Part shown: positions 15,764 through 61,438 of the stretch, piece by piece | Position numbering within the stretch: the stretch's first letter is position 1 | Layout of the letters: every line of letters begins with the position of its first letter | Assembly: GCA_017615795.1 (NCBI GenBank) | Contig: JAFZZK010000013.1 | Location: 94,855 to 158,854 of the forward strand | DNA length: 64,000 bases | Reading direction: 5' to 3' | Source: Bacteroidales bacterium | GTDB lineage: Bacteria > Bacteroidota > Bacteroidia > Bacteroidales > WCHB1-69 | Program-made: the position numbers and the translations under genes | Notes under the pieces: model-generated | Told to the model about the DNA's origin: nothing | Databases searched by the model: none | The model's input: the letters and a program-made list of their open reading frames with translations, nothing else

Positions 15764-16483
15764 ATGAATGCAATCGACAGATTAGTAAGATCAAACACCT
15801 ACAAGAACATCATGGCCAAGTTGTATGGCTGGGGTGCCGCCGTCGTCATTTTCGGCGCTTTGTTCAAAATCCTTCACCTCCCCGGCGCTAACATCATGCT
15901 TATCATAGGTATGGGCACGGAGGTCGCCATCTTCTTCTTCTCCGCTTTCGAGCCTTTACATGTGGAATATAACTGGGCTTTGGTGTATCCTGAGCTTGCT
16001 ATTGCTGATGAAACTGCAGAACCCACGCGCAAAGAGAGAAAGAAAGAGGCTAAGGGCGCAACCCCGACACAACAACTCGACAAGATGCTCGAGGAAGCCA
16101 AGATTGGCCCTGAATTGATTGAAAGTCTCGCCGTTGGCATGAAGAACTTGGGCGACAACGCCAAAAAACTTGCCGGTGTCTCTGATGCAGCTGTGGCCAC
16201 CGACGCCTTCGTGGGCAACATGACCAAGGCCGCCGAGTCTGTGCGCAACCTCTCTCTCAAATACGACAAGGTTGCTTCCACGCTCGAAGCCGACGGCAAC
16301 GCCTCCATCGCATACAGCGAGAGCCTCAAGCGCGCCACCACTGCCATCAACCAAATGGCCACCGCATACGAGCAAACTACGACTTACAAGACCGAAATGG
16401 ACAAGTTGACCCATAACATCGCCGCCCTGAGCAAGGTTTATGGCAATATGCTTGCGGCAATGGGTGTCAATACCAATAAATAA
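15764..16483 (+). CDS. gldL: T9SS inner-membrane motor subunit GldL/PorL
   Basis: 239 residues. Two membrane helices near the N terminus (about 20-38 and 43-61) are separated by 'HLPGAN'. Charged residues Lys35, His38 and Glu53 lie at or in these helices; in this family equivalent residues form the proton path of the GldLM motor that powers type IX secretion. The remainder is a cytoplasmic, mostly helical and Ala/Lys-rich tail from about residue 75. It lies between gldK and gldM with short spacers, the conserved operon order. Confidence 0.95.
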   Translation: MNAIDRLVRSNTYKNIMAKLYGWGAAVVIFGALFKILHLPGANIMLIIGMGTEVAIFFFSAFEPLHVEYNWALVYPELAIADETAEPTRKERKKEAKGATPTQQLDKMLEEAKIGPELIESLAVGMKNLGDNAKKLAGVSDAAVATDAFVGNMTKAAESVRNLSLKYDKVASTLEADGNASIAYSESLKRATTAINQMATAYEQTTTYKTEMDKLTHNIAALSKVYGNMLAAMGVNTNK

Positions 16484-16537: not shown

Positions 16538-18154
16538 ATGGGTGCAACAAATTGTCCGGAGACCCCGAGACAGAAAATGATTCAGATGATGTACTTGGTG
16601 TACACCGCCATGCTTGCATTGAACGTGTCCGCCAATATTCTCGACGCCTTTGTCGTCGTGGATGACACCTTGGTGACCTCCACGACCAACGCCACACACC
16701 AAAATAACAGTGACTACTCCTGGTTCGAAGCCCAAAAGACCATCCTCGGTGAGGCTAAGATCCATGATGCCTATACCAATGCCCAAAAACTGAAGAAAGA
16801 GACCAACGACATGGTGAAGTTCATCGAAACCATGCGTCGCGACCTCATCTATGCCGTTGATGGCGACTCCCTCGCTGAGGTTGTGAACGACCAGGGCAAG
16901 AAGGTGAAAGTCTCCAAAACAGTTTCCACGATTACCAAGAAAGACAATTTCGACATTCCCACCGATTTCATGATCAGACAGGGCAATGCCGAAAAACTCA
17001 AGAAAAAAATTACAGAATACAAGAACAATATCCTGAAATTGGCCAAGTCCTCCGACCGCGAGGGACTCAAGCGTGCCATCGGCCTGGACGTTGATGTCAA
17101 GTATAAGAAGGAAGGTGATTCCCAAACTTGGGAAGAGCACAACTTCGACCACATCATCGCCGCCGCCTCCGTTACGCTTCTCAACAAAATGACAGGTGAG
17201 GTTCGGAATGCCGAGTCCACGATGTTGAACTACCTCAAGGCTTCTATCAGTGCCGACGACTTCAAGTTTGACCATGTGGAAGGCCGTGCCATCCCGAAAT
17301 CGCAGGTGGTGTTCACCGGTGACAGCTACGAGGCTGACATCATTGTGGCTGCCTACGACACCAAGGTTAACCCTGAGGTCTATTACAAGATGGGTGCAGA
17401 TACGTTGACCCAAGACGGTATCGGTAGCGCCAACAAACTGGAAGGCGAAAACGGCGTGGTTAAACTCAAACTGGGTGCCGGCGGTGTCGGCGACCAGAAG
17501 TTCGCCGGCTTGATCAAGGTCATCGGACCGGACGGTCAACCCAAATATTATGGTTTCAAAGACAAATTCACTGTCCTGAAGCCTTCTGCTACCATTGCTG
17601 CTGACAAGATGAACGTGCTTTATGCCGGTATTGCCAACCCGATTTCCGTTTCTGGTGTCGGTTCTGGTAAGATCAGCGTTTCCTTCCCCGGCTGCAGCAT
17701 GTCCTCCACAGGTAACAACACCTATAATGTTACTGTTCCCACATCTTTGATTGGCAAAACGGTGACGGCATCCGTCTCTTCCGACGGCAAGAACATGGGT
17801 AGTACCACGTTCCGTGTGAAGAAGGTTCCCGATCCTCGCGCCGTGTTGGGTGCCAACATCCGCGGTGGCAAGCGCCCCAAGGCTGAGATTCTGGCGAACC
17901 CGATGGTCCGTGCGGTCATGGGTGAGGACTTTGCCTTCGACCTCAAGTGGAAAGTCAACTCTTTCCGCGTGGTCTTCGTCAGCAAGAACATAGAAGAACC
18001 GCCTTTGGCATGTAACGGTGGTACCCTCTCCGATAATGTCAAGGCGAAAATCCAAAAGGCTTCCGCCGGCACGGTCATCTATTTCCAGGACATCAAGGTC
18101 TCTTCCGAGGCGGGTACCCGTACTCTGGACGAGTTCTCTGTCCGCGTAAGATAA
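16538..18154 (+). CDS. gldM: T9SS motor subunit GldM/PorM
   Basis: 538 residues, close to family length. A single N-terminal membrane helix (about 15-37, 'MIQMMYLVYTAMLALNVSA', preceded by Arg11) is followed by a long periplasmic part made of four domains in known GldM structures. Sequence here such as 'VAVYDTK'-like strands around residue 270 and the C-terminal 'DEFSVRVR' fit that organisation. GldM dimers insert one helix each into the GldL pentamer and reach across the periplasm to the GldKN ring. gldN starts 19 bases downstream. Confidence 0.95.
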   Translation: MGATNCPETPRQKMIQMMYLVYTAMLALNVSANILDAFVVVDDTLVTSTTNATHQNNSDYSWFEAQKTILGEAKIHDAYTNAQKLKKETNDMVKFIETMRRDLIYAVDGDSLAEVVNDQGKKVKVSKTVSTITKKDNFDIPTDFMIRQGNAEKLKKKITEYKNNILKLAKSSDREGLKRAIGLDVDVKYKKEGDSQTWEEHNFDHIIAAASVTLLNKMTGEVRNAESTMLNYLKASISADDFKFDHVEGRAIPKSQVVFTGDSYEADIIVAAYDTKVNPEVYYKMGADTLTQDGIGSANKLEGENGVVKLKLGAGGVGDQKFAGLIKVIGPDGQPKYYGFKDKFTVLKPSATIAADKMNVLYAGIANPISVSGVGSGKISVSFPGCSMSSTGNNTYNVTVPTSLIGKTVTASVSSDGKNMGSTTFRVKKVPDPRAVLGANIRGGKRPKAEILANPMVRAVMGEDFAFDLKWKVNSFRVVFVSKNIEEPPLACNGGTLSDNVKAKIQKASAGTVIYFQDIKVSSEAGTRTLDEFSVRVR

Positions 18155-18173
18155 CATTTAAACACCTATAATT

Positions 18174-19115
18174 ATGAAAAAGTTCGGATTATTATTAATG
18201 GCTGTGTTTGCCCTGAATTTTGCCTTCGCGCAAGAAGATGAAGATGGGAGCACCATGAACCAGCCCATCGACCGTGCCCCGGCCGAGTACCCTTGGCAGC
18301 AAGTCGAGGTGAATGAATTGTCAGACCCCATCCCGTACGCCCCCATTCGTCAGGCAGACGTGATGTATTATTACACCATTTGGAGAACCATCGACCTCCG
18401 CGAGAAAGTGAACCATCCGCTTTACTTCCCGACCGAAGTGAGAGGTACTTGGCGCAGCTTGGCCCAGACCATCCTCGATGCCATCGATATGGAGAATCCG
18501 GAAAAAACGGAAGGCATTTTGCCTCTCTATTCCGATGACATGTGTACCATGCCCATGGCTCGCGAGGATCTCAAAGGGAACATGGCTTTAACGTATACCA
18601 TTGCCGACATCGATCCGGAAACGGGTGAGGAAATTGGCGAGAAGGAAATTACCAATGAGTTCAAATCCAGTGAGATTACTTCCTATAATCTCAAGGAGAT
18701 ATGGTATTTTGACAAGCAGGAATCCCGCTTCAAGTACCAGATCATGACTATCCAGCCTTTCTTCGAGTATGAGCGTCCCAACACCTCTTCCAACGTGTTT
18801 GATGACGAAGAGGAAGACGATGAGGCTGTGTCCACCCCGTTGGTGAAGAGAATGCTGGGTTACATTTATTACGATGAGCTCAGACCTTTCCTTGCCAAGC
18901 AAGAGGTTTACAACATCAAAAACAATGCCCAGCGTCTGTCCTTCGACGACCTGTTGACCTGGAAGCGTTATTTCTCTTCCCTGATCTACAAAGAGGCGAA
19001 TGTCTATGATCGTGAGATCCAGGACTACATCGCCAATGCCCGCGATCAACGCATCGAATCCGAGAAGATTACCGAACGTTTGCGCACTTTCGAGAGCGAT
19101 CTCTGGGAATTTTAG
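18174..19115 (+). CDS. gldN: T9SS ring protein GldN/PorN
   Basis: 313 residues with a signal peptide (about 1-20, ending 'NFAFAQ') and no lipobox, so a soluble periplasmic protein. Family features include 'ADVMYYYTIWRTIDLREKVN' near residue 55, 'LPLYSDDMCTMPM' and 'EIWYFDKQESRFKYQIM'. It forms the periplasmic ring with GldK under the outer membrane. It is the last gene of the operon and is followed by a strong terminator 30 bases after the stop. Confidence 0.95.
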   Translation: MKKFGLLLMAVFALNFAFAQEDEDGSTMNQPIDRAPAEYPWQQVEVNELSDPIPYAPIRQADVMYYYTIWRTIDLREKVNHPLYFPTEVRGTWRSLAQTILDAIDMENPEKTEGILPLYSDDMCTMPMAREDLKGNMALTYTIADIDPETGEEIGEKEITNEFKSSEITSYNLKEIWYFDKQESRFKYQIMTIQPFFEYERPNTSSNVFDDEEEDDEAVSTPLVKRMLGYIYYDELRPFLAKQEVYNIKNNAQRLSFDDLLTWKRYFSSLIYKEANVYDREIQDYIANARDQRIESEKITERLRTFESDLWEF

Positions 19116-46590: not shown

Positions 46591-47937
46591 TTATTTACTA
46601 AAATGCTTTTGCGTTTTCCAAGGGTAGAATTTGAGGAAGATGATCGATCCAAGGAACCGCAGCGAGGTGTATATCCAGTCAGCGGTCCACACCCAATGGA
46701 TGGCGAGATGAAACACTTCCGTCGCAAGATAGACGTATATGATGTAGAAAACAAGCGCGCCCGTTTCGATGTAAAGGGCGATATGCGTGTTCCCCGTGCC
46801 CGATACGAACTCGAAGTAAACCATGCTTATCGCTATCAGGATGGAAGAGAGGTATACAACATAGAGAGCAGGCACGGAGCGGGCGGCCATCGCAATGTCA
46901 TCCGTGTAGAGAGACGCAACTTGTTTTGGGAAAATAACAAGCAGGAACAGGATGGGCAGCAGTGTGAGCAGGGAGATCTTGAGTATTTGCCGCAGGGTGG
47001 GAGCCACTTCATTGATCAGTCCCGCCCCGATAAGACGGCTGGAGACGGTGTTGGCGCAAGCACCGTAGGCAAATGCGCTCAACGTGCTGAGCATGAAGAT
47101 GCTGCGCACTATGCCGGAGATGGCCATGGGCTCTTCGCCAAGATGCTCGATCATGGCAAAAAAGAGGAACCAGGAACCGAAGGAGATGAATCGTTGGAAC
47201 ATCGTCGGCAACGAGATGCGCAGGACATTCCCTAATAAAGGCCATTCAAAGGCTTGGAAGGAAAAGAGACTATATTTTTTATAGGGTAATTTCAGGAATG
47301 TGTGCAGGAAAAAGACGATGCAGGCAGTGGCTTCCGCGATTACAGAGGAGAGTCCGGCACCGGCAACGCCCATCTCGGGAAATCCAAAGTGGCCGAATAT
47401 CAGGCTGTAGTCGAAGAAAATGTTGACAACAGCCATGGCCACGGTAGTGTAGGTGATGATTTTTGTGTTGGAAAGCCCGATGTATAACGAACGGAACATG
47501 AAATTCATGCTCACGAAGAGGATGCCCCATTGGCGGAAGTCGATGAATTGAAGGGCTGCAGTATAGATGTTGGGCGAATGGACGATGCCGCCGAGGATGC
47601 CGCGTGTGCCGAAGTGCATCAAAGCGAGCATGACGGCGCCTAAGAAGAGCGAGAAAAAGAGCCCGTGTTCGAAGATGGGACCGATACGCTTCAACTCACC
47701 CTCGCCCAGCCGGCGGGCCACCAGGATTTGGATGCCTATAGTGAAACCCTGGAGTATGGTGGTGAAAACCAGATAATAGAGTCCGGCCATCATGGCGGCA
47801 CCCAATTCCACTTTGCCGACATGGCCGAGGAAGATGGTGTTCACCAGCACAATGAGGGTCTGCGCCAGGTTTCCGAAAATAATGGGGTATGTGATTTGCC
47901 ATATCTCCTTGTTGGAGACGGAAAGCGGTTGTGCCAT
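46591..47937 (-). CDS. MATE family efflux transporter
   Basis: 448 residues with about twelve membrane helices in two MatE halves, e.g. 'GNLAQTLIVLVNTIFLGHVG' (about 22-41) and 'YLVFTTILQGFTIGIQILVA'. It probably exports cationic drugs or metabolites using Na+ or H+. Its start overlaps the DUF4270 stop by one base (TAATG), so the two are translationally coupled. Confidence 0.9.
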   Translation of the reverse strand: MAQPLSVSNKEIWQITYPIIFGNLAQTLIVLVNTIFLGHVGKVELGAAMMAGLYYLVFTTILQGFTIGIQILVARRLGEGELKRIGPIFEHGLFFSLFLGAVMLALMHFGTRGILGGIVHSPNIYTAALQFIDFRQWGILFVSMNFMFRSLYIGLSNTKIITYTTVAMAVVNIFFDYSLIFGHFGFPEMGVAGAGLSSVIAEATACIVFFLHTFLKLPYKKYSLFSFQAFEWPLLGNVLRISLPTMFQRFISFGSWFLFFAMIEHLGEEPMAISGIVRSIFMLSTLSAFAYGACANTVSSRLIGAGLINEVAPTLRQILKISLLTLLPILFLLVIFPKQVASLYTDDIAMAARSVPALYVVYLSSILIAISMVYFEFVSGTGNTHIALYIETGALVFYIIYVYLATEVFHLAIHWVWTADWIYTSLRFLGSIIFLKFYPWKTQKHFSK

Positions 47938-50276: not shown

Positions 50277-50302
50277 AGCTCCGATATCGTCGGGGCTTTT
50301 TT
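50277..50302 (+). terminator. Terminator of tRNA-Leu
   Basis: AGCTCCGA (50277-50284) pairs with TCGGGGCT (50290-50297) with one G-U pair, followed by six T residues. It ends at the stop codon of the converging MATE gene. Confidence 0.88.
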
Positions 50303-51638
50303 ATTGCATCTGGCGTAGCGCATGGGCACAGAACACGCCCGCCATGGAGATGGAGAGCACGTCGGCGATGGGTTGCGCGATGACCATGCCGTAAATCCCC
50401 CAAAAATGTGAACCGATGTACAACAGCGGGATGTAGAACAACCCGTGGCGCGCGATGGCCACGACGGTCGCGCTGACCGTCTTCCGTGTGTTTTGCAGGT
50501 ACATGTTCACAATGACGACGAACCCCACTAATGAGAATGTGAAACATTGGTATCGCAGCACTTGCGCACCGATACGAACCACCTCCGAGTCTTCCGCCCG
50601 GAAGAGGCAGATGATGTCCTCCGCAAACACAATCCCGATAACACTGACCACAATGCAATAGACTGTGGCTATCAAAACGCTGTAGTTGAATGCTTTGCGC
50701 ACGCGGCCGTAAAGATGCGCCCCATAGTTGAAGCCGCACACGGGCTGGAATCCCTGCCCGAAGCCCAACAGCGCCGCCATCACGAGGGCCATCACTCGAT
50801 TTACTACCGAGAATGCCGCCACTGCGGGGTCGCCGTATGTCGCGGCAAGGTTGTTGACACAAAGGGATACAACACTGATCAAACTTTGCCGCACTAACGA
50901 GGGAAGTCCACCAGCCACAATCTCTCTGTAATGCGCCATGACGGGGTGGAAATGCCGCAGACGGATCCGGATGCCACCGTTCCTGCCAATCATGGATAAC
51001 ATGATCCAGAAGCTGACAAACTGCGAAATGGCAGTGGCGAGTCCTGCCCCCGCTACTCCCATGTCCAACCCGAAGATGAAAATGGGGTCTAAGGCGATGT
51101 TCATGATCGCGCCCGAGAGCACCCCAACCATCGAGAGGATGGCGTTGCCCTGTAAACGCATCTGGTTGTTCATCACGAAAACACCCGACATGAAAGGGCT
51201 GCATAGCAGAATGTAGCCGAAATAGGGGCGCGCGACTGGCAAAATGGTGGGCGTGGACCCGAAAAAGCGCAGCAACGGATCCATGAAGATGAACCCGGAA
51301 ACGGCCAAGAGTGTCGTCAGCATTATGGAAATGAAGAACCCCGAAGCAGCCATCTCCTCGGCCTGCTCCGACTGGCGCGCACCTAATGCACGGGATATGA
51401 AGTTGCCGGAACCATGCCCGAAAAAGAACGAAATGGCTTGTATGAGCGTCATGTATACAAACACAATGCCGAGCGCAGCAGTGGACTGCGTGTCGATTCT
51501 CCCCACAAAAAACGTGTCCACCACGTTGTAAAGCCCTGTGACCAGCATGCAGACCATCGAGGGGATGGCCATCTCCCACACAAGCCGCCCAACAGGCTGC
51601 GTGGTCATTTTTGTGTATTTTGCATCGCGTTGATTCAC
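50301..51638 (-). CDS. MATE family transporter (MepA-like)
   Basis: 445 residues with about twelve membrane helices: 'VGRLVWEMAIPSMVCMLVTG' followed by 'LYNVVDTFFVGRIDTQSTAA', a start typical of MepA-like MATE proteins. The second half repeats the motif with 'GFGQGFQPVCGFNYGAHLYG'. Its substrate is unknown. It lies downstream of the cobalamin-riboswitch genes on the same strand, but a terminator (51728-51758) and its own -7 box (51679-51686) separate it from them, so B12 control is not implied. Confidence 0.9.
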   Translation of the reverse strand: MNQRDAKYTKMTTQPVGRLVWEMAIPSMVCMLVTGLYNVVDTFFVGRIDTQSTAALGIVFVYMTLIQAISFFFGHGSGNFISRALGARQSEQAEEMAASGFFISIMLTTLLAVSGFIFMDPLLRFFGSTPTILPVARPYFGYILLCSPFMSGVFVMNNQMRLQGNAILSMVGVLSGAIMNIALDPIFIFGLDMGVAGAGLATAISQFVSFWIMLSMIGRNGGIRIRLRHFHPVMAHYREIVAGGLPSLVRQSLISVVSLCVNNLAATYGDPAVAAFSVVNRVMALVMAALLGFGQGFQPVCGFNYGAHLYGRVRKAFNYSVLIATVYCIVVSVIGIVFAEDIICLFRAEDSEVVRIGAQVLRYQCFTFSLVGFVVIVNMYLQNTRKTVSATVVAIARHGLFYIPLLYIGSHFWGIYGMVIAQPIADVLSISMAGVFCAHALRQMQ

Positions 51639-51727: not shown

Positions 51728-51758
51728 GAAAAAAGGAGAACGCCAGAGCATTCTCCTT
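51728..51758 (-). terminator. Terminator of the cobalamin-riboswitch operon
   Basis: AAGGAGAA (51733-51740) and TTCTCCTT (51751-51758) form a perfect 8-bp stem with a ten-base loop. Read on the minus strand a T run follows. It lies 33 bases after the stop of the last sorting-domain protein gene. Confidence 0.8.
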
Positions 51759-51790
51759 CCCTTAAAGATTATGAAATACAATGGTAGAAG

Positions 51791-52783
51791 TTACTTTTTG
51801 ACAATTTTCTTGGTTTGGCCGTCAGCCTTGATGAAGTATATGCTGGCGGGCAGGCTGCTCAGGTCAAGGGTGACGCTGACATTGCCATCGCCATGCAAAT
51901 GTTGCACCATGTTGCCATAGATATCGTACAAGGCGACATCGTGGAGGCCATTGACTTCATTGTAGAGGGTGATGACATCCGTGGTGGGGTTCGGCCAAGC
52001 CTTGAGTATGTTGATTCCTGCAACGTGTTCGTCGATGGAGGTGGGTCTCCAGCCGTTCATGATGGCGACACCGCTGAGGTCGAAGCCACTGCTGCCCCAA
52101 GGGGTGGGGTAAGGGTCGTTGATGATGTGCCCGTACTGGTCGTAGGTGGCGTACTGCGGGTCGATGCAACCCACGACGTCGATGAGGCGGACATGGGTGA
52201 CATTGTTGATGTCAAGACCCTGGATGCCGCTTAGCTGCGCCAAGTCGAACGGGGTGCCCCAGCCCACGCGGTGCTTGCCGGCGAGGTTGTCCACCTCGCG
52301 CGGGTTCACGGAGCCACCATTGGCGATTTGCACCTCCGTTTGTGTGAGGGAGGTGGCGGGAAAGCGGAAATAGTTCACCCCGTCGGAGCTGACTTCCACG
52401 AAAGCCATTTCAAGGAAAGAGTCGTTCAGGGAGTTCTCGAAGACCGCAAAGTCGTAACCGTCGCCATCTTGGATGGGAATGCCGAAGGTGAGCACGGCCA
52501 CGCCTCCGTCGCCTAAGCTGACCACGCCGTCAGTGGTAGACTGCGAAGAGGGGCCGATGCCGTCGGAATCATCACCATAGCTGGCGTATGTGCCTGGACT
52601 GGCGATGTCGGTGTAGCCTCGGGTGATGGTGCAGCCCGTGGCCCAGCCGAGAATGGCATTGTCCTCGAACCAGATGGCCTGGCAGTCTGCACTCCCCACA
52701 GGACCGTCGAAGAGTGTGTCGGTTTGTGCTGTTCCCATATACGCGAACAGCAATGGCAAGATAGCGAGGAGTATGTTTTTCAT
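51791..52783 (-). CDS. T9SS-sorted surface protein of the cobalamin operon (FENS-type domain)
   Basis: 330 residues. A signal peptide ends near 'YMGTAQ' (about 19). The central domain has 'DGYDFAVFENSLNDSFLEMA' followed by 'FVEVSSDGVNYFRFPATS' and later 'NNVTHVRLIDVVG', a beta-sandwich-like unit of unknown function. From about residue 260 a T9SS type A sorting domain begins ('AWPNPTTDVITLYN') and ends 'SIYFIKADGQTKKIVKK'. It is therefore exported by the type IX machinery. It starts 2 bases after the stop of the upstream sorted protein, so both are on the B12-controlled mRNA. A role in B12 capture is an inference from this control. Confidence 0.78.
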   Translation of the reverse strand: MKNILLAILPLLFAYMGTAQTDTLFDGPVGSADCQAIWFEDNAILGWATGCTITRGYTDIASPGTYASYGDDSDGIGPSSQSTTDGVVSLGDGGVAVLTFGIPIQDGDGYDFAVFENSLNDSFLEMAFVEVSSDGVNYFRFPATSLTQTEVQIANGGSVNPREVDNLAGKHRVGWGTPFDLAQLSGIQGLDINNVTHVRLIDVVGCIDPQYATYDQYGHIINDPYPTPWGSSGFDLSGVAIMNGWRPTSIDEHVAGINILKAWPNPTTDVITLYNEVNGLHDVALYDIYGNMVQHLHGDGNVSVTLDLSSLPASIYFIKADGQTKKIVKK

Positions 52784-52785
52784 GG

Positions 52786-53976
52786 TTAGTCTTGCTTGAC
52801 GACCTTGAGGGTCTGGTTGTTGGCTTTGAGGATGTATTGCCCGTTGACAAGTCCGTCCAAGCTGACGTTCACTTCATGGCTGTCATTGCCGTCGACCTTT
52901 TGCAGAAGTTTGCCGAAAAGGTCATAGACTTCCACTTGCTGGATGTTGTTGTCTGAGGTGACACGCACGTTGCCGGTGGTCGGGTTGGGATAGGCCTTCA
53001 GGGAAGCATCCATGCTGTGGTTGGCGATGCCTACAGGCGTGCTGACGTAAAGAATGTTGAAATCGGTGAAGGTGCAGGAGGCATACTCTGTCATGTCGAA
53101 ATAACTGCGGTCCACGATGGGGTCGGTGAGTCCCATGCACCATTCTCCGTCGATGGTGTAAGAGAGCCAGCCTTCGTTGGCGAGCGTGTAGTTGTGCTCG
53201 TTGTCGACAAAGGTGTAGTTGTTCACGCCCCAGTCATTGTAGGTGATGGTCAGACGGCTGTCGGCTGCATCGATGTTGTTGAGCATCGTTTGGATGTCTT
53301 GGTTGCCATCCCATCTGTAGCCGTATGCGATGCCGACGGGCACGTCGTTCTGGCACCATGCGAAAGTGACGTATGTCTCCTGGCTGCCGGAACCGATCCA
53401 GTAGTTGATGTTTGCCGGGACCAACACAGGCACGTAAGGTGCCGCGGGTGCTGCGAGGTAGTAGAGGGTGGCGTCATCGTAGTCGTCACAGTCCAAGGAC
53501 CATTCCTGCACTTCAAAATATCCGTTGTTGACGAGAGGGTCTGTCACGCCGCTGCTATAGTTGCCGTCCATGGTGTACATGCAGTATCCGGAAGGGAATG
53601 AGAGATTCAAGCCCAGATCCGTGTTCTGGTACGTGATCAAATCAAAGAGCGTGTTCGTGGAATTGTAAGAGACATGGAAATGGGCGCTGTCTTCGGCAGC
53701 GATTTCATCGAACATGTCCTTGATGGTTTTGGTTCCGTCCCAGCGATAGCCGTATACAATGCCGACAGGATTTTCGTTGTTGCAATAGAAAATGGCGGTG
53801 ACAATCTGGTTGGCACCGGTGCCGATCCAGTATTGGACGCTATCGGTGGACACGTTCACTTGGACGCCACGCACGGGCTGGAAATCTGATCCGCCGTTTT
53901 GGTGAGCATAATTGTTCTGCGCGAAGGCAAAATTGGTTGCGAATAATATCGCAAGTAAGTAAAAGAATTTTTTCAT
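52786..53976 (-). CDS. T9SS-sorted protein with duplicated 'YRWDG' domain, candidate B12-related surface protein
   Basis: 396 residues. Signal peptide 1-20 ('FATNFAFAQ'). Two homologous domains follow, about 49-166 and 192-304. Each starts 'YWIGxG', then has a Cys-containing strand, 'PVGIxYGYRWDG', a short helix ('TIKDMFDEIAAEDS' or 'DIQTMLNNIDAADS') and ends with 'YTMDGNYSSGVTDPLV' or 'YTIDGEWCMGLTDPIV'. A T9SS type A sorting domain begins at about 328 ('AYPNPTTGNVRV') and ends 'LKVVKQD'. It lies 12 bases after the BtuG-like gene in the riboswitch operon. I cannot name the domain family with certainty; B12 binding is a hypothesis from context. Confidence 0.78.
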   Translation of the reverse strand: MKKFFYLLAILFATNFAFAQNNYAHQNGGSDFQPVRGVQVNVSTDSVQYWIGTGANQIVTAIFYCNNENPVGIVYGYRWDGTKTIKDMFDEIAAEDSAHFHVSYNSTNTLFDLITYQNTDLGLNLSFPSGYCMYTMDGNYSSGVTDPLVNNGYFEVQEWSLDCDDYDDATLYYLAAPAAPYVPVLVPANINYWIGSGSQETYVTFAWCQNDVPVGIAYGYRWDGNQDIQTMLNNIDAADSRLTITYNDWGVNNYTFVDNEHNYTLANEGWLSYTIDGEWCMGLTDPIVDRSYFDMTEYASCTFTDFNILYVSTPVGIANHSMDASLKAYPNPTTGNVRVTSDNNIQQVEVYDLFGKLLQKVDGNDSHEVNVSLDGLVNGQYILKANNQTLKVVKQD

Positions 53977-53988
53977 AAGACGATGTTT

Positions 53989-55089
53989 TTATTGGTATTT
54001 TGAAATTAGATTAGTTTCTGTGTTAAAAACGATTTTAGAAGGGTTGATGCCAACCTCGAAGGAGAACTTCTTCTTGCCATCTTGGCTGAAGCAGTACACA
54101 TCGCCCGTGACGGTGAAATCATGGACGTCTGTAATGTAGATGTCCCCGTTGAGCGGGTTGGCCGTGATGGAATAAGGGGTCTCGATGGTCGTGCCGTCGG
54201 TGATGAAGTTGTGGTCGGAAAGCTCGTCGGTATGCAGATTGAGCACTTTGATCCAGGATGTGGAATTCATGAAGTCGTATGAATAGACGAAGGCCTTGTC
54301 GCCATAGATGTCGAAGTTGAGGACCTCGATGCCGTATTCTTTGACGACTTCGTCGGTGGCGGCGTCGATTTTATAAAGGTTGTAGGGTGTCGCCATGTAG
54401 TCGCCGCGTGAGTTCACATAAATGTATTGGTCGTTGTAACCTTTGACGATGTAGGGGTTGATGCCGACCGTGATGGTTTTGGTGACAGTCATGGTGTTGG
54501 GGTCGACGACGGAGACAGTGTTGTCGTAGTTGGGGTTGTCCAATCCGCCGGAGTTGGCGACGTACAGTTTGTGGTTGCAGACGCAGATGCCTTCGGGGTT
54601 GCGTCCGCAGCGAACGGTGCCGTCGATTTCGAGTGTGGCGGTGTCGATGCGTACCACGTCACCGTCGAAGCAGGAGACGAAGGCTTTGCCGTTGAGGAAG
54701 CAGATGTATCGGGGTTGTTTGCCTTCCAAGGATATGGATTTCAGAGACTTGGCGTTTGCAAAGTTCATCACTTCCACGCGGTTGGAGACGTTGACCACAG
54801 CATAAAGTTTGGAACCGTAGCGTTGAAGGTCGTTGCCGGTGTCGCCCAATCCGCGGTGGTTGGCCTCAAGGAAGATGTCGGGGTTGATGACGCCCGTTTT
54901 CATGTCGTAATAGGAGATGGAACTATTGTTGTGATCCATGACACCCTCGTTGAGTACGAAAATCCCGTCGGCATGGGCGTCTATGGGCGGTGTGGGATTG
55001 GGTGGCTCGGGCCCGGGACAGGCGGTGAGCAATAACAGAGAGGCCGCCAGGAGGGCGTATACAAAGGTGGACTTTTTTCTCAAATGCAT
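53989..55089 (-). CDS. btuG: BtuG-like surface beta-propeller lipoprotein
   Basis: 366 residues. A lipoprotein signal ends at Cys24 ('LLTAC') followed by a Pro-rich linker. The mature part is a YncE/DUF5074-type beta-propeller with repeated blades: 'GIFVLNEGVMDHNNSSISYY', 'GLGDTGNDLQRYGSKLYAVV', 'GKQPRYICFLNGKAFVSCFD', 'GRNPEGICVCNHKLYVANSG' and 'GINPYIVKGYNDQYIYVNSR'. This matches the general pattern of BtuG, the outer-surface cobalamin-binding lipoprotein of Bacteroides that loads the TonB transporter BtuB. The cobalamin riboswitch directly upstream strengthens the call. No btuB gene lies in this window. Confidence 0.75.
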   Translation of the reverse strand: MHLRKKSTFVYALLAASLLLLTACPGPEPPNPTPPIDAHADGIFVLNEGVMDHNNSSISYYDMKTGVINPDIFLEANHRGLGDTGNDLQRYGSKLYAVVNVSNRVEVMNFANAKSLKSISLEGKQPRYICFLNGKAFVSCFDGDVVRIDTATLEIDGTVRCGRNPEGICVCNHKLYVANSGGLDNPNYDNTVSVVDPNTMTVTKTITVGINPYIVKGYNDQYIYVNSRGDYMATPYNLYKIDAATDEVVKEYGIEVLNFDIYGDKAFVYSYDFMNSTSWIKVLNLHTDELSDHNFITDGTTIETPYSITANPLNGDIYITDVHDFTVTGDVYCFSQDGKKKFSFEVGINPSKIVFNTETNLISKYQ

Positions 55090-55195
55090 TTCCTCGGCAT
55101 TTTAGAATTAATAATATGCTTCGGAATAGAGGAGGGAATCGCATGGAACATGCAATTGTTTAAACCGGCCTAAACTCCCGAAGCGGTCACAATCA

Positions 55196-55362
55196 CGCCA
55201 AGTGGTAGGTTTTCTGACTTGTCTCTTCCGGAACGCCTTCCCGTCGTGCGACAGTGACTTTGTTGTCCCGGAAACGGATGAGACTCACAGCAGCGGGTAC
55301 TGTACAGGTCTTGCACCTGTTTCCCTTGGGTTTTTTCTTTCGGAAAAAGCCTTTCCCAAATG
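55196..55362 (-). ncRNA. Cobalamin (AdoCbl/B12) riboswitch
   Basis: On the minus strand the leader has the conserved core of the cobalamin riboswitch in order. 'GGGAAACAGGTGCAAGACCTG' gives the P3/P4-type hairpin (GGGAA at about 55319, CAGGTG/CACCTG). Then come 'ACCCGCTGCTGTGA' (the CCCGC-CUGUGA block), 'AGTCACTG', 'GGGAAGGCG' and the B12 box end 'AAGTCAGAAAACCTACCA'. It lies between a -7 box at 55369-55376 and the BtuG-like gene about 107 bases downstream. A small hairpin (GCATG/CATGC, about 55141-55153) in the leader near the gene may act in the expression platform. High B12 is expected to lower expression of the following three genes. Confidence 0.9.
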
Positions 55363-55368
55363 GCGCTG

Positions 55369-55376
55369 CAAAAGTA
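55369..55376 (-). promoter_or_regulatory. -7 box of the cobalamin-riboswitch operon
   Basis: TACTTTTG on the minus strand matches TAnnTTTG, placing the transcript start just at the 5' edge of the riboswitch. The -33 match is poor. Confidence 0.65.
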
Positions 55377-55746: not shown

Positions 55747-57543
55747 TCAATGTCCAGTCTCTTGATTTTCCCGTAGGTACGCAAACAAATCCACGGCCTT
55801 CTTCGGTCCGATCACCTCGGCCAGTTGCTGTTCCGTGGCTTCGCGGATGCGCTTCACCGACTTGTAATGGGCGAGCAACTTTTGCTTGAGCACGGGGCCG
55901 ATGCCGGGCGCGTTGTCCAACACGGAGGCGATGCTTGTCTTGGATCGGCGGTTGCGGTGATGGGTGATGCCGAAGTGGTGCACCTCGTCGCGCACCTGCT
56001 GCAACAGTTTTTGTGCCTCCGACTTCTTGTCGATATAGACGGGGTACTCGTCGCCCACCTTGTAAATGTCCTCCAATCGTTTGGCGATGCCCACCACCAT
56101 CAGTTTGTCCTCGATGTGGAGGGCTTGGATGGAGCGGTAGGCGGCGTTGAGTTGCCCTTTGCCACCATCGATGACCACCAGGTCGGGCAGGTTTTTCTCC
56201 TCCTCGATGAGGCGGTGGTAGCGGCGGTAGATGACCTCCTCCATGGAGGCGAAGTCGTCGGCCCCGACCACGGTCTTGATGTTGTAGTGGCGGTACTCCT
56301 TCTTGGCAGGCTTGCCGTCGATGAAGCATATCATGGCGGCCACGGGGTCTTCGCCCTGCGTGTTGGAGTTGTCGAAGCACTCGATGTGGCGCGGCAGTGT
56401 CTTCATGCCGAGGGCCTGTTGCAGGGCCATGAGCACGCGCTGGCTGCGCCGTTCGGGGTTGACGAGATCCTGCCGTTTCTTCTTCTCTAACATGTAGAAA
56501 TGGGCATTGCGGACGGCCAGGTCCAGGAGCTTGCGCTTCTCGCCGCGCTGCGGCACCACCACCTCCATGCCGTCGGGCGCGATGGTGGGCTCCATGGGCA
56601 CCAGTAGGGTTGGGGAGAGCGTGCCGAGACGCTCCTGCATCTCCAAGATGCCGTTCCAGAGCAGTTCCTCGCTGCTGCTGTCTAATTTGTTGTCAATCTC
56701 CAAGGTGTGTGCCTGCACAATGGCGCCGTCCACCACGCGCAGGAAGCTGATGTAGGCGCACTCCTCGTCCTCTTCCATGCCGAACACGTCTAAGCGGGTG
56801 AGTGTGGGGCTGACCACCACCGACTTGGCAACGTATTCACTCAAAATTTCGATTTGTTTCTTGATGGCTCCAGCCTTCTCGAACTCCCATTTTTCAGCAT
56901 GTTGCATCATGTCCTCCTTGAGTTGCTGGATGACCTCCTTGCGGTTGCCCTTGATGATGTCGAGGATCTTGCGGATATTCTCCTGATACTGTTCTGCGGT
57001 GATGAGGTTGCAGCAGGGTGCTGCGCACTTGCCGAGCTGGTGCTGCATGCAGGGGCGCTCGTTGCGCACAAGGCGGCGGCACGTGCGCAAGGGGAACATG
57101 TCGTTGATGGTGTCCAACAGGACGTTCATCTGCTTGACCGACGAGTAGGGGCCGAAAAGGTGCATCTTGTCAGGCTCGGGATGGCGTGTGGGGAAGATGC
57201 GCGGGAACTCCTCCTTGGTGACAGCAATCCACGGGTACGACTTGTCGTCCTTGAGCATGATGTTGTAGCGCGGCTTGAACTGCTTGATCATGCTGTTCTC
57301 GAGCAGTAGGGCCTCCCACTCGTTGTCCACCACGGTGGTCTGGATGTCGCGGATCTTGGTGACGAGCATGCGCACTTTGGGCGAGTCGTGGTCCTTGTTA
57401 AAATAGGAGGAGACGCGGCGCTTGAGGCGTTTGGCCTTGCCCACGTAGATGATGGTGCCGTCGGCGTCGAAAAAGCGGTAAACGCCCGGCTTCTCGGGCA
57501 GGGAACGCAGGATGAGCTGTATGTTGTCGGGCGTGGATTTCAT
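55747..57543 (-). CDS. uvrC: Excinuclease ABC subunit C
   Basis: 598 residues. GIY-YIG nuclease domain at the N terminus ('KPGVYRFFDADGTIIYVGKA'), UVR motif region near 200-235, the RNase H-like endonuclease domain ('ECFDNSNTQGEDPVAAMICF') near 380, and C-terminal helix-hairpin-helix motifs ('NAPGIGPVLKQKLLAHYKSV'). It makes both incisions in nucleotide excision repair. Its ATG shares base 57543 with the stop of the upstream ABC permease gene, so the two are translationally coupled. Confidence 0.95.
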   Translation of the reverse strand: MKSTPDNIQLILRSLPEKPGVYRFFDADGTIIYVGKAKRLKRRVSSYFNKDHDSPKVRMLVTKIRDIQTTVVDNEWEALLLENSMIKQFKPRYNIMLKDDKSYPWIAVTKEEFPRIFPTRHPEPDKMHLFGPYSSVKQMNVLLDTINDMFPLRTCRRLVRNERPCMQHQLGKCAAPCCNLITAEQYQENIRKILDIIKGNRKEVIQQLKEDMMQHAEKWEFEKAGAIKKQIEILSEYVAKSVVVSPTLTRLDVFGMEEDEECAYISFLRVVDGAIVQAHTLEIDNKLDSSSEELLWNGILEMQERLGTLSPTLLVPMEPTIAPDGMEVVVPQRGEKRKLLDLAVRNAHFYMLEKKKRQDLVNPERRSQRVLMALQQALGMKTLPRHIECFDNSNTQGEDPVAAMICFIDGKPAKKEYRHYNIKTVVGADDFASMEEVIYRRYHRLIEEEKNLPDLVVIDGGKGQLNAAYRSIQALHIEDKLMVVGIAKRLEDIYKVGDEYPVYIDKKSEAQKLLQQVRDEVHHFGITHHRNRRSKTSIASVLDNAPGIGPVLKQKLLAHYKSVKRIREATEQQLAEVIGPKKAVDLFAYLRENQETGH

Positions 57544-58550
57544 CAGTGTTTACGGAGCAGGAGGAAGATGAAATAGGGTGCGCCGGCCAGGGCGGTGATG
57601 CTGCCCACGGGTAGTTCGGAAGGTGCGGCTATGGTGCGCGCCAGCGTGTCCGCGATGAGCAGGAAAAAGGCCCCGAAGAAGAGCGAGTAGGTGAAGAGGT
57701 GACGGTTGTCGCTGCCGAAGATGAGACGGGCGATGTGGGGCACGATAAGGCCGATGAACCCGATGACGCCGCAGAAGGAGACCACCACCGCGATGAGCAC
57801 GGAGGATGCGATGAGCGTGATGTAGGTGACGCGACGCGCGTCCACACCGAGGCTCTGTGCTGTTTCCGTCCCCAACTGTAAGATGTTGAGGTCCTTGGCA
57901 TGCCAATATAGTAGAAGGATGACAATGATCATCACGGGTAGCAGGCAGGCAATCTCCTGCCAGGATACGGTGGCCACACTGCCCATGGTCCAGAAGAAAA
58001 TTTGGTGCATCTCTTTTTGGTTGAGCACCATCAGCAGGGTGATGACGGCGGAGATGAAGAAGTTGAGGGCTATGCCAGTGAGTAGCAGTGTCTGAGTGCT
58101 GTGCCGTCCTCGCAGGCGGGCGATGCCCATGATGAGCAACAGCGTCAGGATGGCAGTGGCCAATGCCGGCAGGGTGATGCCAAACACGAAGGCGTCCCAG
58201 CCGATGATGATGGCGATGGCCGCGCCTAATGACGCACCCGACGAGATGCCAAGGATGTAGGGGTCGCAGATGGGGTTGCGGAAGATGCTCTGGAACACGC
58301 AGCCGCAGATGGCCAGCGAGGCGCCCGCCAGCAGGCTCATCACGATGCGCGGCAACCGCAGCTGCCACAAGGTGATCTCATAGAACGCTGGCACTGTCGT
58401 GTCGGCGGCCAGCCCGAACTTGTGCAGGAAACTCTGCCACAGCACGTCGGCAGGAATGTGGATGACCCCGACGAACGTGGCCAGCACTGCGTTGGCCAAC
58501 AGCACCGCACTGAATAACAAGGACCAAACGATATGTATGCGACGTTTCAT
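57543..58550 (-). CDS. FecCD/BtuC-type ABC transporter permease
   Basis: 335 residues with about nine to ten membrane helices. The FecCD signature blocks are 'PRIVMSLLAGASLAICGCVF', 'NPICDPYILGISSGASLGAA' and the cytoplasmic coupling region 'GFIGLIVPHIARLIFGSDNR'. Such permeases import cobalamin, haem or ferric siderophores with a BtuF/BtuD-type binding protein and ATPase, neither of which is adjacent. Nearness to the cobalamin operon favours B12, but no riboswitch precedes this gene. ATG 58550 follows the -7 box at 58571-58578; a longer reading from 58619 would start upstream of it. Confidence 0.85.
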   Translation of the reverse strand: MKRRIHIVWSLLFSAVLLANAVLATFVGVIHIPADVLWQSFLHKFGLAADTTVPAFYEITLWQLRLPRIVMSLLAGASLAICGCVFQSIFRNPICDPYILGISSGASLGAAIAIIIGWDAFVFGITLPALATAILTLLLIMGIARLRGRHSTQTLLLTGIALNFFISAVITLLMVLNQKEMHQIFFWTMGSVATVSWQEIACLLPVMIIVILLLYWHAKDLNILQLGTETAQSLGVDARRVTYITLIASSVLIAVVVSFCGVIGFIGLIVPHIARLIFGSDNRHLFTYSLFFGAFFLLIADTLARTIAAPSELPVGSITALAGAPYFIFLLLRKH

Positions 58551-58897
58551 CTTACATTTTTTTGAAGTTGCAAACATACACAAAAAAAACGGAAGAAGGT
58601 ATGGCACATCTTGTCGCAATTTGTTTATTTGTTTTTTAACATTTATATGTTATAAAAAAGATTGTGAATTGATATTTTTTGCATTTTTCTTTTTGTACTA
58701 TTGCAGAATTGAAAGTGGAGATATTTTTTTTGAAAATTATTGATGAATAATAAGTTGAATAAAGAACCCCGTTTGCTTGTGTTTGGCTGCGAATATTGGG
58801 TGATGGCTTGAAATGCTTTGTATTTTGCAAGTTGCGTAATTTTTGTATTATTTTTACTAAAAAACGTTATTATTATCATAAAATTAAAACAGTTAAT
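58551..58897. other. AT-rich divergent intergenic region
   Basis: 347 bases between the btuC-like gene (minus) and the FISUMP gene (plus). It holds the minus-strand -7 box at 58571-58578 and several TATTTTTTG- and TATTTTG-like near matches on the plus strand, none exact. No gene, tRNA or stable hairpin was seen. Confidence 0.5.
58571..58578 (-). promoter_or_regulatory. -7 box of the btuC-like/uvrC operon
   Basis: TATGTTTG on the minus strand matches TAnnTTTG, 20 bases before the chosen ATG. Confidence 0.6.
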
Positions 58898-61438
58898 ATG
58901 AAAAAACAGTTACTAAAATTTTCTTTTATTCGTACAGTTCAGATGTTTCTGTCATTTTGTTTCATCCTGTTTATGATGAATACCAATATTGTGGCCGAAA
59001 CCGTCACCTACACGCCTGACTCCAGAAACTCGGTAACCACGTCGGGTACCGCCCCCACAGGGTCATCTGCATCGTTTTATAATACTTATAACAACAAGAA
59101 TCAGGTAACGAAAAACAACTCAATGACATTCACGCTGTCCGGTTATGCTGGTTGTAAAATCACGGGCATCACCCTGTCTATGAAATCCAATACGGATAAA
59201 GGTTCTGGATACTTCTCTATGGTGGCGGGCAGCACAACGTTGTCATCCATCGCGACGGCAACCGCTCCGGCAGCTTTCAATAGTTCGTCTTGGCACGGCG
59301 CCTGGTCAACGAGTTATGTGGATGTTACTCCTGCTATGACCAACAGTAACTATACCATCGGCACCGGAGAGGATGTTGTCGTTACTATTGCGGCCACTGT
59401 CAGTTCACTCTATTGCCAATACATAACCATAACGTATGAGCCCACTCCCAAGTACGACATCACTTTTAATCCCGGAACGGGCACTTGCACCCCCTCCAGC
59501 GCGAACGTCAATGTCATTGATTTGTCAACGGTAACGGCCACCCCTTCGGCTTCCTGCCAGGCAAGCGGTTGGGTTTTTGTCGGTTGGTCGGAGAGCGAGG
59601 TGGCAGAGACCAATACCGCTCCCACATTGTTGACCGGTTCGTATCAGCCCAGTGGCAATATCACCCTGTACGCAGTGTATATGCTTGACGGAGGAGCAAT
59701 CAACACGGCCAGCAGGACCTTCTTGTCGTATAACTTTGATAACGGCAGAACTATGCAGAACGATGAACCTCACGCTATCAACAGTGTTGCTACAATCTCC
59801 TTTAACCAAGGTGGGAACATTCACGCAGGCGTGCCCGCCTATTATATCGATGGGGAAGCTGTCCGCTGTTATGTGGGGAACACTTTCAAGGTAAAATCCA
59901 CGGTCCTTCCCATAAGGAGCATCACCTTGACCTTTAGCACTGGCGGCGGTAGTAACACAACCGTATCAGGTCATCCTATTTCTGCCAGTACGGGGACCTA
60001 TACCGACGGTGAAACCGAAGGTTCCTGGACGGGAAGTGCCGACTCCGTGACATTTACCGTCAGTAATTCTCTAGGAAACACATCCGGACACCGACGTTTG
60101 GCAGCGATTACTGTCACGTACGGCCAGAACTTTGCAGTTGTGTATAACACCAATCCCAATTGCGTCCGCACGCTGAACATCGCATATCTGAAGGCCGACG
60201 GAACGCAGGCCGCAGGAGACTATTCGCAATCGGTAGGAATCAACCTGCCCTTTAACGTCACCAGCCCTCAGGTGAGCGGCTATGTGGCCGACAGAAGTGT
60301 TGTCGCTGGCACCATGCCCAATGACGATGTGTATGATACGGTCACATACCACCTTGTGACAGTGGATATTGACAGTATCTTCCATTGTGATATTCCCGGT
60401 TCCGGCAGCATCACCGTCACAAACCCCACCAGCGGTTATGAGTATTCGTTGGATGGCACAAGTTTCCAAAGCAGTCTGGCTTTCACCGATTTGAATGCGG
60501 GCGACCACACTCTGTACATACGTCCGGTTGGCCAAGATTACAACTACACCGGTGTTTGGACGGTGACATCGAATATCAATGAACCTACAAACCCCAATTA
60601 CGTGTTTTCGCTCAACGGTCCGGATGCGTATGGAGCACTTGCGCCGAGTGCCACATCCACGACAGTGAGCCTCACCAATCCTACGGTTACCCATTTTATG
60701 GACAATTTCATAAACCACTACAGTACGGATTCAGTTACCCTTGTCAACGATGCTCCGGCTGAATATACTGCCACCGGGGATTATACTGTCGAGTGGACTG
60801 CCACCGATAAGTGCGGAAATATTGCCACCACAACGGTCACCGTGCATATCACTGAGCAAACCTGTGCCGGAGTGTCGGATGTGGATGGCAATAATTACCA
60901 GACGGTGCTTATCGGTTCCAAATGTTGGATGGCGGAGAATTTGAGAACCACCCGTTATTCTGATGGCCGCAATATTACCAACATCTATCTTTACACCAAC
61001 TCTTACCGTCCCGATGCCAATGCCAATAAGCAGGTCTTCGGCTTGTTGTATGATTGGTATGACGCATTGGACTCCAACAGCGTAAGAACGAGGTCACCCT
61101 ATGTTCAGGGCATTTGTCCTGCCGATTGGCATATTCCTACCGAAAGCGAATTCCAGGAACTGAGTGCGGTTGACCTGCATACTTTGCGCTCCAGTGAATA
61201 TTGGCTGAAGAATCCTGGCAGCAACACTACCGGTTTTACAATGCATCCTGCAGGTATGTACAGCTCCGATGCCAGCAGATATGAGGATCTGTTGGATAAT
61301 GCCTATTTTTGGTCGTCAGCAGGGGTCGATGACATAACGGCACATTGCTATATGGCTGATTGCCACTGCTATATGATGTTCGATTTGATACGCAAAAAAA
61401 ATGATGCATACAGCATTCGTTGCGTCAAAAACGAATAG
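58898..61438 (+). CDS. Large exported protein with C-terminal FISUMP domain
   Basis: 846 residues. A hydrophobic signal segment (about 10-32) ends near 'NIVAE'. Then come several Ser/Thr-rich beta domains: 'TFTLSGYAGCKITGITLSMK' (a T9SS-cargo-like beta-sandwich that recurs near 'IRSITLTFSTGGGSNTTVSG'), a 'WVFVGWSESEVAETNTAPTL' block like Listeria/Bacteroides repeat units, and an HYR-like stretch ('YTVEWTATDKCGNIATTTVT'). The C-terminal 200 residues are a Fibrobacter succinogenes major paralogous domain ('VLIGSKCWMAENLRTTRYSD', 'ICPADWHIPTESEFQELS', 'YFWSSAG', 'YSIRCVKNE'). No T9SS type A tail is visible. Probably an adhesive surface protein. Confidence 0.8.
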   Translation: MKKQLLKFSFIRTVQMFLSFCFILFMMNTNIVAETVTYTPDSRNSVTTSGTAPTGSSASFYNTYNNKNQVTKNNSMTFTLSGYAGCKITGITLSMKSNTDKGSGYFSMVAGSTTLSSIATATAPAAFNSSSWHGAWSTSYVDVTPAMTNSNYTIGTGEDVVVTIAATVSSLYCQYITITYEPTPKYDITFNPGTGTCTPSSANVNVIDLSTVTATPSASCQASGWVFVGWSESEVAETNTAPTLLTGSYQPSGNITLYAVYMLDGGAINTASRTFLSYNFDNGRTMQNDEPHAINSVATISFNQGGNIHAGVPAYYIDGEAVRCYVGNTFKVKSTVLPIRSITLTFSTGGGSNTTVSGHPISASTGTYTDGETEGSWTGSADSVTFTVSNSLGNTSGHRRLAAITVTYGQNFAVVYNTNPNCVRTLNIAYLKADGTQAAGDYSQSVGINLPFNVTSPQVSGYVADRSVVAGTMPNDDVYDTVTYHLVTVDIDSIFHCDIPGSGSITVTNPTSGYEYSLDGTSFQSSLAFTDLNAGDHTLYIRPVGQDYNYTGVWTVTSNINEPTNPNYVFSLNGPDAYGALAPSATSTTVSLTNPTVTHFMDNFINHYSTDSVTLVNDAPAEYTATGDYTVEWTATDKCGNIATTTVTVHITEQTCAGVSDVDGNNYQTVLIGSKCWMAENLRTTRYSDGRNITNIYLYTNSYRPDANANKQVFGLLYDWYDALDSNSVRTRSPYVQGICPADWHIPTESEFQELSAVDLHTLRSSEYWLKNPGSNTTGFTMHPAGMYSSDASRYEDLLDNAYFWSSAGVDDITAHCYMADCHCYMMFDLIRKKNDAYSIRCVKNE

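Follow-up and report, generated by a model that had tools for sequence, protein, structure and literature searches.

The question raised by the locus considered here is whether proteins that carry sorting tails of the type IX secretion system (T9SS) take part in the capture of vitamin B12 (cobalamin) by Bacteroidota, or whether their place behind a cobalamin riboswitch has some other explanation. The locus is an operon of three genes, here called A, B and C, in a stretch of 64,000 nucleotides (the window) from contig JAFZZK010000013.1 of a Bacteroidales bacterium (assembly GCA_017615795.1, with a genome of 2.04 Mb, 87% complete). Positions follow the numbering of the window unless another contig or locus is named; labels beginning with L denote loci and those beginning with G denote genomes, G000 being the host. 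The answer that we favour, at a probability of roughly 0.7, is that the operon specifies a B12-repressed, T9SS-exported module for surface capture of corrinoids, feeding a BtuG–BtuB system, where binding, display and regulation are what we infer.

Operon layout, riboswitch and gene A

All features of the operon lie on the minus strand. The leader holds a cobalamin riboswitch aptamer at 55187–55375, which matches RF00174 over the full model (1–189); its 74.4 bits (E 1.8e-16) compare with a gathering threshold of 31.5. A promoter-like sequence, TACTTTTGC, at 55368–55376, overlaps the first positions of this match and fits the Bacteroidota −7 promoter box, TAnnTTTGC; in an alignment of 24 riboswitches the base C is invariant at this place and T-T-T-G nearly so. 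The remainder of the leader (55090–55186), between the aptamer and gene A, is a putative expression platform with a strong fold and no T run (for 55080–55190, z is −2.47, and 3 of 200 shuffles fold equally well). Genes A (53989–55089), B (52786–53976) and C (51791–52783) follow, each starting with ATG, at intergenic gaps of 12 and 2 bases, and behind them stands an intrinsic terminator (51729–51762) consisting of a 15-pair stem and a T run (−18.8 kcal/mol, z −3.76, with none of 200 shuffles equally good). An earlier note, made from the letters alone, had described this arrangement of riboswitch leader, three closely spaced genes and terminator, and had assigned a BtuG-type propeller to the first gene, type A T9SS tails to the other two, and a type IX system to a site 33 kb away; each of these descriptions stands up to the searches reported in this and the following section.

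Gene A codes for a beta-propeller matching DUF5074 in Pfam (57.1 bits, residues 41–254). Its nearest solved structure is chain B of 8blw (E 1.7e-81, residues 39–358); E values are about 1e-80 against 8blw, 8ptf and 8ptd, and about 1e-25 to 1e-24 against the structures of BtuG2 and BtuG3. Since 8BLW is the BtuB1G1 complex of B. thetaiotaomicron, with BtuG1 as its chain B (PMC10404256), gene A can be called BtuG1-like, although it lacks the BtuH domain of BtuG1. A lipobox, LLTAC, was read by eye, and a clear lipoprotein export signal is not evident. The possibility that B or C is a BtuH homologue was rejected, in that neither profile matches the BtuH domain within 8blw up to an E of 5.

Export signals and T9SS machinery

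Both B and C show signal peptides by eye, and both end in T9SS type A sorting tails that exceed the cut-offs of the two models used (23 bits for TIGR04183; 27 bits for Por_Secre_tail, PF18962). The tail of B spans residues 329–395 (52792–52992; 39.0 and 41.2 bits respectively) and that of C residues 263–330 (51794–51997; 37.1 and 43.1 bits); T9SS tail structures (8gl8, 8gl6, 8qb1) are also found among the fold matches of the two proteins. The parts of the machinery that were sought were the PorP family, GldK, GldL, GldM, GldN and PorU. The first five lie together on the plus strand of the window, all above their NCBIfam cut-offs: a PorP/SprF-family membrane protein at 13154–14206 (TIGR03519, 147.3 bits), GldK/PorK at 14272–15702 (TIGR03525, 516.5 bits), GldL/PorL at 15764–16483 (TIGR03513, 172.9 bits), GldM/PorM at 16538–18154 (TIGR03517, 322.9 bits) and GldN/PorN at 18174–19115 (TIGR03523, 192 bits). 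PorU is encoded elsewhere in the genome, at G000:C27 (1218 bits).

Recurrence of B and C behind cobalamin riboswitches

If B and C belong to B12 uptake, one would expect their families to recur within B12-regulated loci, as the earlier note had supposed, and for the most part they do. Gene C and the riboswitch model were each searched in 60 genomes, the host included. A strong C match (E ≤ 1e-40) was present in 35 of these, and in 32 of the 35 a riboswitch lies upstream on the same contig and strand, at a distance of 101–5780 bases (median 1731); the misses are G022, with none within 16 kb, and G031 and G009, where the gene meets the contig end. A second scan with the C profile, over named genomes, gave at least 580 matches, of which the best 80 were followed up; these come for the most part from rumen and gut Bacteroidales assemblies (the closest being UBA1176) and share at least 12 genomes with the 35. 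Here a riboswitch was found upstream on the same strand (by a model denoted R1) in 72 of 80 loci, at a median of 2041 bases; in L172 and L174, two of the 72, the end of the fetched sequence truncates it to its 3' part. A tail is present in 78 of the 80 C proteins. Rfam likewise found no riboswitch in the eight misses, of which five (L106, L112, L161, L145 and L178) start at a contig end, two (L131 and L155) come from stretches that start about 200 bases before the gene, and one, L148, is a plain miss. The chance expectation is, very roughly, 0.3% per gene (2.5 riboswitches in 2.6 Mb).

For B, a profile searched against 392 Bacteroidota genomes matched eight, the host included, and of the eight B loci that were fetched for the other seven genomes all carry RF00174 except L200, which is truncated by a contig end. 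A search with a lipoprotein form of B (L201) in 392 genomes of the order matched 43. Twenty of these were fetched, mostly the best match per genus, and in 19 of them R1 places a riboswitch ahead of the gene in the same orientation, the remaining one, L235, having none by R1 or by Rfam. Two of the three lipoprotein forms of B thus stand behind a riboswitch (L201 and L239, but not L235).

The C profile reaches further across the phylum, matching 44 of 392 Bacteroidota genomes, nine of them strongly (host included). The other eight strong loci have a cobalamin riboswitch upstream in six cases and a BtuG-like neighbour in three; twelve of the 35 weak loci were fetched, with a riboswitch in seven and a BtuG-like neighbour in ten. 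The BtuG-like calls in these loci come from a one-sequence propeller model that may match other propellers too; the one neighbour that was checked, in L287, is closest to 8blw (E 2.9e-66). The weak members share with C the motifs VFEN or IFEN and VSxDG, and part of them carry a tail.

As to the host itself, two cobalamin riboswitches were found in its genome. The second (G000:C17:109041-109225, equivalent to L001 1501–1685; 97.8 bits) lies upstream of an anaerobic ribonucleoside-triphosphate reductase, which suggests a B12-dependent choice of reductase class; in L238, too, a riboswitch (10812–11006) stands upstream of an open reading frame (ORF) resembling such a reductase by eye.

Gene B and its relationship to transcobalamins

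Between its signal peptide and tail, B consists of two repeats of about 142 residues each, at residues 39–180 (53437–53862) and 182–322 (53011–53433), defined from an alignment (A2) with borders taken from the L063 orthologue; mean column identity of the B alignment is 40%. The family to which these repeats appear to be related is DUF4430 (PF14478), the C-terminal domain of transcobalamins (PMC4350170). In one set of 51 B domains, 14 match DUF4430 at E ≤ 1 (best 1.8e-6), while six other families are each matched by one or two members only (best E 0.0037). A second set, of 23, was enriched for DUF4430-like members; 14 of them match it at E ≤ 0.01 (best 2.3e-10), and at that level none matches anything else. 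In a further test four of ten proteins passed the DUF4430 gathering score. On this evidence B probably comprises two repeats related to the beta-grasp domain of transcobalamin and intrinsic factor, a relationship that is clear in relatives and not in these repeats alone. No Pfam match to DUF4465 (PF14717) was found in either B or C, nor, tails aside, did any other Pfam or NCBIfam family exceed its cut-off in them.

The AlphaFold2 model of B has a mean pLDDT of 76 and a pTM of 0.50, and within the repeats the pLDDT of most ten-residue blocks lies at 70–97. Each repeat is modelled as a pair of long strands followed by a helix and then by five strands, with short edge strands besides, and the number of strands after the helix is compatible (by count) with the beta-hairpin insert said to typify the transcobalamin-like clade of the SLBB beta-grasp superfamily (PMC1796856). 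A Foldseek search with the model has a biofilm protein, a DUF3244 protein and T9SS tails in the top ranks, intrinsic factor at rank 12 (probability 0.95, E 0.03) and transcobalamins at ranks 34 and 44, a modelled resemblance that is suggestive, not proof. An attempt to build a sequence bridge from B to the solved transcobalamins was dropped when two B alignments failed to give one.

Gene C and its exchangeable partner

C has a single domain of about 230 residues (residues 21–250; 52034–52723), for which a 32-sequence alignment gives a mean column identity of 68%. The AlphaFold2 model of the whole protein is beta-rich, with a mean pLDDT of 90.5. A Foldseek search with it, tail included, gave 42 matches at E ≤ 0.001, of which the best is a biofilm protein (1.3e-5) and among which glycosidases prevail; as the TM-score to the model is at most 0.27 among the matches listed, no fold relative is claimed. 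The idea that C might be a divergent DUF4465 protein was likewise rejected, the hhalign probability being 0.1% and the profile search of the Protein Data Bank (PDB) remaining at chance level. C is a family for which neither name nor function was found, and in classes far apart from one another it recurs with BtuB-like and BtuG-like genes as neighbours.

In most congeners possessing C, between one and five B repeats are joined to it in a single polypeptide with one tail, while the two are separate genes in the window, in G015, G027 and G026, and in some others (e.g. L125, L130, L137). In other families operons run riboswitch–B–C–BtuB–BtuG (L240, L242, L243, L244, L247); the order is riboswitch–BtuB–BtuG–B–C in L137 and riboswitch–BtuB–DUF4465–C–BtuG in L167. 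Receptors were named by their best NCBIfam model, TIGR01779 (PRK10641.1 for L238), always below cut-off. C is fused to DUF4465 in L083, L086, L153 and L238, and in L165, L167, L173 and L181 a DUF4465 gene with a tail is followed by C and by a BtuG-like gene; in L184 it is B that is fused, with a DUF5074 propeller.

To put this on a numerical footing, partners were counted in 109 C loci (those left after removing 23 duplicates or short copies), within 4 kb and on the same strand. B alone was present in 95 (68 fused, 27 near), DUF4465 alone in nine, both in one and neither in four, including L088, a fragment that shares its genome with L087. From these counts it follows that B and DUF4465 exchange places beside C. 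A tail is present in 105 of the 109 C proteins, and a BtuG-like gene lies within 4 kb in 44.

Some larger or additional relatives were also seen. Giant proteins of 2235–2383 residues (L131 208–6915, L155 211–6915, L172 238–7386, L174 121–7128) have a B repeat near the start, then more than 1000 residues that match none of the profiles applied, then more B repeats and a C domain. In L098 (521–5923) and L090 (5159–10504) the gene behind the riboswitch codes for a protein about 1800 residues long that combines B repeats with fibronectin type III domains and a T9SS tail. In cobalamin operons of class-level relatives a B-bearing gene of propeller size comes after the gene for an unassigned lipoprotein (by eye) some 400 residues long (L194 3526–4740, L196 7844–9034, L197 7087–8280, L198 5397–6572, L199 5370–6563), which in four of these five loci itself follows a receptor-sized ORF and a BtuG-like gene.

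Choice of anchor

The anchor carried by B was compared with the presence of the sortase PorU, which exceeds its cut-off in 28 of 31 genomes, and the three without it (G289, G773 and G662) are those in which B is, by eye, a lipoprotein (L201, L239 and L235 respectively). A fetched B gene is available for 26 of the 28, G037 and G044 having been included for their C–DUF4465 fusions, so that lipoprotein B occurs in three of three genomes without PorU and in none of 26 with it (exact p 0.0003 if the genomes were independent, a condition that does not hold). A tailed B protein is found in 21 of the 26. The anchor type of B follows the presence of PorU.

Receptor and permease

No BtuB gene accompanies gene A, either in the operon or in the 64,000-nucleotide window. 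A BtuB-like gene does occur on another contig (G000:C40:45897-47963), its product being 34% identical to the receptor encoded in the L137 operon (E 1.4e-89), and four matches to B12-binding domains exceed cut-off in the host genome. An ABC permease of FecCD type (57543–58619, minus strand, as in the operon), for which the best NCBIfam model is BtuC at 265.7 of 461 bits, far below cut-off, lies upstream of a uvrC-like gene and is a possible inner-membrane partner.

Proposed mechanism and competing explanations

In the mechanism that we propose, low intracellular B12 would cause the riboswitch to permit expression of A, B and C, as cobalamin riboswitches generally behave. A would act as a BtuG-type lid lipoprotein, handing corrinoid to a TonB receptor of BtuB type, a role suggested by homology. 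Judging from their tails and the machinery present, B and C would cross the inner membrane by their signal peptides and the outer membrane through T9SS, whereupon PorU would remove the tails and leave the proteins anchored at the surface or released. B may then grip the corrinoid by its transcobalamin-like repeats, the link to that family coming from relatives, while C, to go by its conservation, fusions and exchange of partner, would be the constant element that docks or closes over the ligand with B, or elsewhere with DUF4465. The captured corrinoid would finally be passed to A and BtuB. The proposal of the earlier note that B12-related proteins are displayed through T9SS draws support from the riboswitch linkage, the tails, the T9SS core and PorU, and from the operons of several other families in which such tailed genes join BtuB-like and BtuG-like ones, with surface display itself being the predicted outcome. 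It also comes through the two computational tests that the note had set, the RF00174 match and the prevalence of B12-regulated loci among those of B and C.

A larger claim can be built on the same material, namely that the B12 uptake machine in the outer membrane of Bacteroidota has in C a core subunit so far unrecognised; that B and C together form a two-part corrinoid clamp, a bacterial counterpart of transcobalamin, of which B or DUF4465 is the exchangeable gripping half; and that T9SS sorting and lipidation are interchangeable ways either to place the clamp at the surface or to release a diffusible B12 trap. Taken jointly these propositions are tentative, and we would sooner bet against the whole than for it.

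Several observations weigh against the reading of the operon as a corrinoid-capture module. As regards the survey, no riboswitch lies near the strong C match of G022, and L148 and L235 are unexplained by contig ends. As regards B, the window's own gene has no DUF4430 match at E ≤ 1, either as a whole or for repeat 1; sequence searches of the PDB with profiles from two different alignments brought up no transcobalamin chain; and Foldseek matched intrinsic factor and transcobalamin only weakly (E 0.03–0.09, TM-score 0.17–0.18, rmsd about 17 Å). C yielded no convincing fold relative by Foldseek or PDB profile and no profile similarity to DUF4465 by hhalign. In NCBIfam the BtuB model matches the host's BtuB-like gene weakly, at 60.9 bits, as against 56.9 bits from a model of heme receptors, and each score falls far short of its cut-off; the gene is solitary, having no btu neighbour within 14 kb by eye and no riboswitch. 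Five of the 26 PorU genomes (G057, G581, G632, G746, G791) show neither tail nor lipobox in B. Finally, BtuL and BtuK2, which are encoded in cobamide operons of B. thetaiotaomicron, are reported not to bind B12 (PMC12751083), which makes it an oversimplification to credit all proteins of such operons with B12 binding.

This last point speaks for the explanation that B and C belong to the B12 system without binding corrinoid at all, acting instead in vesicle release (a role reported for BtuL of B. thetaiotaomicron), in adhesion to sources of corrinoid or in support of BtuB–BtuG. It would also suit such a role that C is better conserved than B (68% against 40% mean column identity in the alignments used), as a docking domain might be. 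On the other hand the B domains are related to DUF4430, the transcobalamin C-terminal domain, and the family that replaces B beside C in nine of 109 loci, DUF4465, includes eight distantly related members that bind B12 (PMC13398666), and for these reasons we consider a non-binding role unlikely, though well worth taking seriously. Considerably less probable is that the targets of B and C are proteins of other organisms that carry corrinoid, or some different ligand, and that the two share with B12 uptake only its regulation: the model of C is weakly like the beta-sandwich of sugar-handling proteins (TM-score at most 0.27 among the matches listed), whereas the BtuB-like and BtuG-like neighbours across a wide range of the phylum, and the exchange with DUF4465, argue against this. 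That the two proteins are ordinary T9SS cargo that happens to stand behind a cobalamin riboswitch in one lineage could be suggested by the numerous T9SS-tailed proteins encoded in genomes of this genus, and is contradicted by the riboswitch survey of B and C loci (32/35, 72/80, 19/20 and 7/8, against a rough 0.3% per gene), in which lipoprotein B, too, is riboswitch-led in two cases out of three.

Other features near the operon

Two groups of neighbours may be recorded for completeness. Just downstream of the operon, MATE-like transporter genes at 46591–47937 (by eye only) and 50301–51638 flank a glycogen-synthase-like gene and a DUF4270 gene. On the plus strand, adjoining the permease gene, 58796–61438 codes for a protein of 880 residues with a Fib_succ_major domain.

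Comparison with known systems

A search of the literature, from which preprints were excluded and which took in few subscription papers, found no published link between T9SS and B12 uptake, in keeping with the statement of the earlier note that none was known to it. The sole paper found to contain both "type IX secretion" and "cobalamin riboswitch" (PMC9723704) treats the two separately where they occur, the available text of PMC5395568 and PMC12578637 contains no such link, and neither T9SS nor type IX occurs in the main text of PMC13398666. What is new here is, in our view, a probable second export route within the known surface B12 scavenging of Bacteroidota, together with a candidate binder, B, whose sequence relatives point towards transcobalamin, and its unnamed recurrent partner, C. 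Surface capture of B12 is described as a factor in how fit B. thetaiotaomicron is when living in the gut of mice, the agents described being lipoproteins; the type IX route implies that capture could also be sortase-anchored or shed, and the range of transcobalamin-related domains would now extend to Bacteroidota. All of this is testable with small soluble proteins.

The closest parallels are the cobamide loci of B. thetaiotaomicron (PMC6143338, PMC8941943, PMC10404256, PMC12751083), which, as described, are likewise controlled by a cobalamin riboswitch and combine in one operon a propeller of BtuG type with accessory surface proteins. There, however, BtuG, H, J, K and L are predicted lipoproteins (PMC12751083), whereas the two accessory proteins here are T9SS-tailed; they are DUF4430-related and C-type, and are set beside BtuK and BtuL by description, not by sequence. 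With the BtuB–BtuG complex (PMC10404256) the locus shares a lid of BtuG1 type, and BtuB-like genes adjoin in many related loci (e.g. L137, L167, L242), although the operon in the window has no BtuB gene and gene A no counterpart of the BtuH domain described for BtuG1.

The DUF4465 (IPR027828) proteins, which include BtuJ1 and BtuJ2, are reported to be predicted lipoproteins in more than 70% of cases, the remainder having periplasmic signals (PMC13398666). They are comparable to B in occupying its place beside C in some relatives, where six are T9SS-tailed; B and C differ from them in having no Pfam match, and for C the hhalign figure given above tells the same story.

A further comparison is with the transcobalamin-like SLBB clade and DUF4430 (PMC1796856, PMC4350170), to which part of the B domains are linked by DUF4430 matches and which the modelled strands in each repeat of the window's B would, by count, fit. 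Burroughs et al. suggested that extracellular bacterial members of this clade scavenge B12 or its precursors, and placed the clade in animals, low-GC Gram-positive bacteria and planctomycetes, and less often in euryarchaea (PMC1796856). In contrast to that described range, the domains found here belong to Bacteroidota, carry T9SS tails and often occur as tandem repeats; and whereas the animal transcobalamin domain adjoins an alpha/alpha toroid, B adjoins C.

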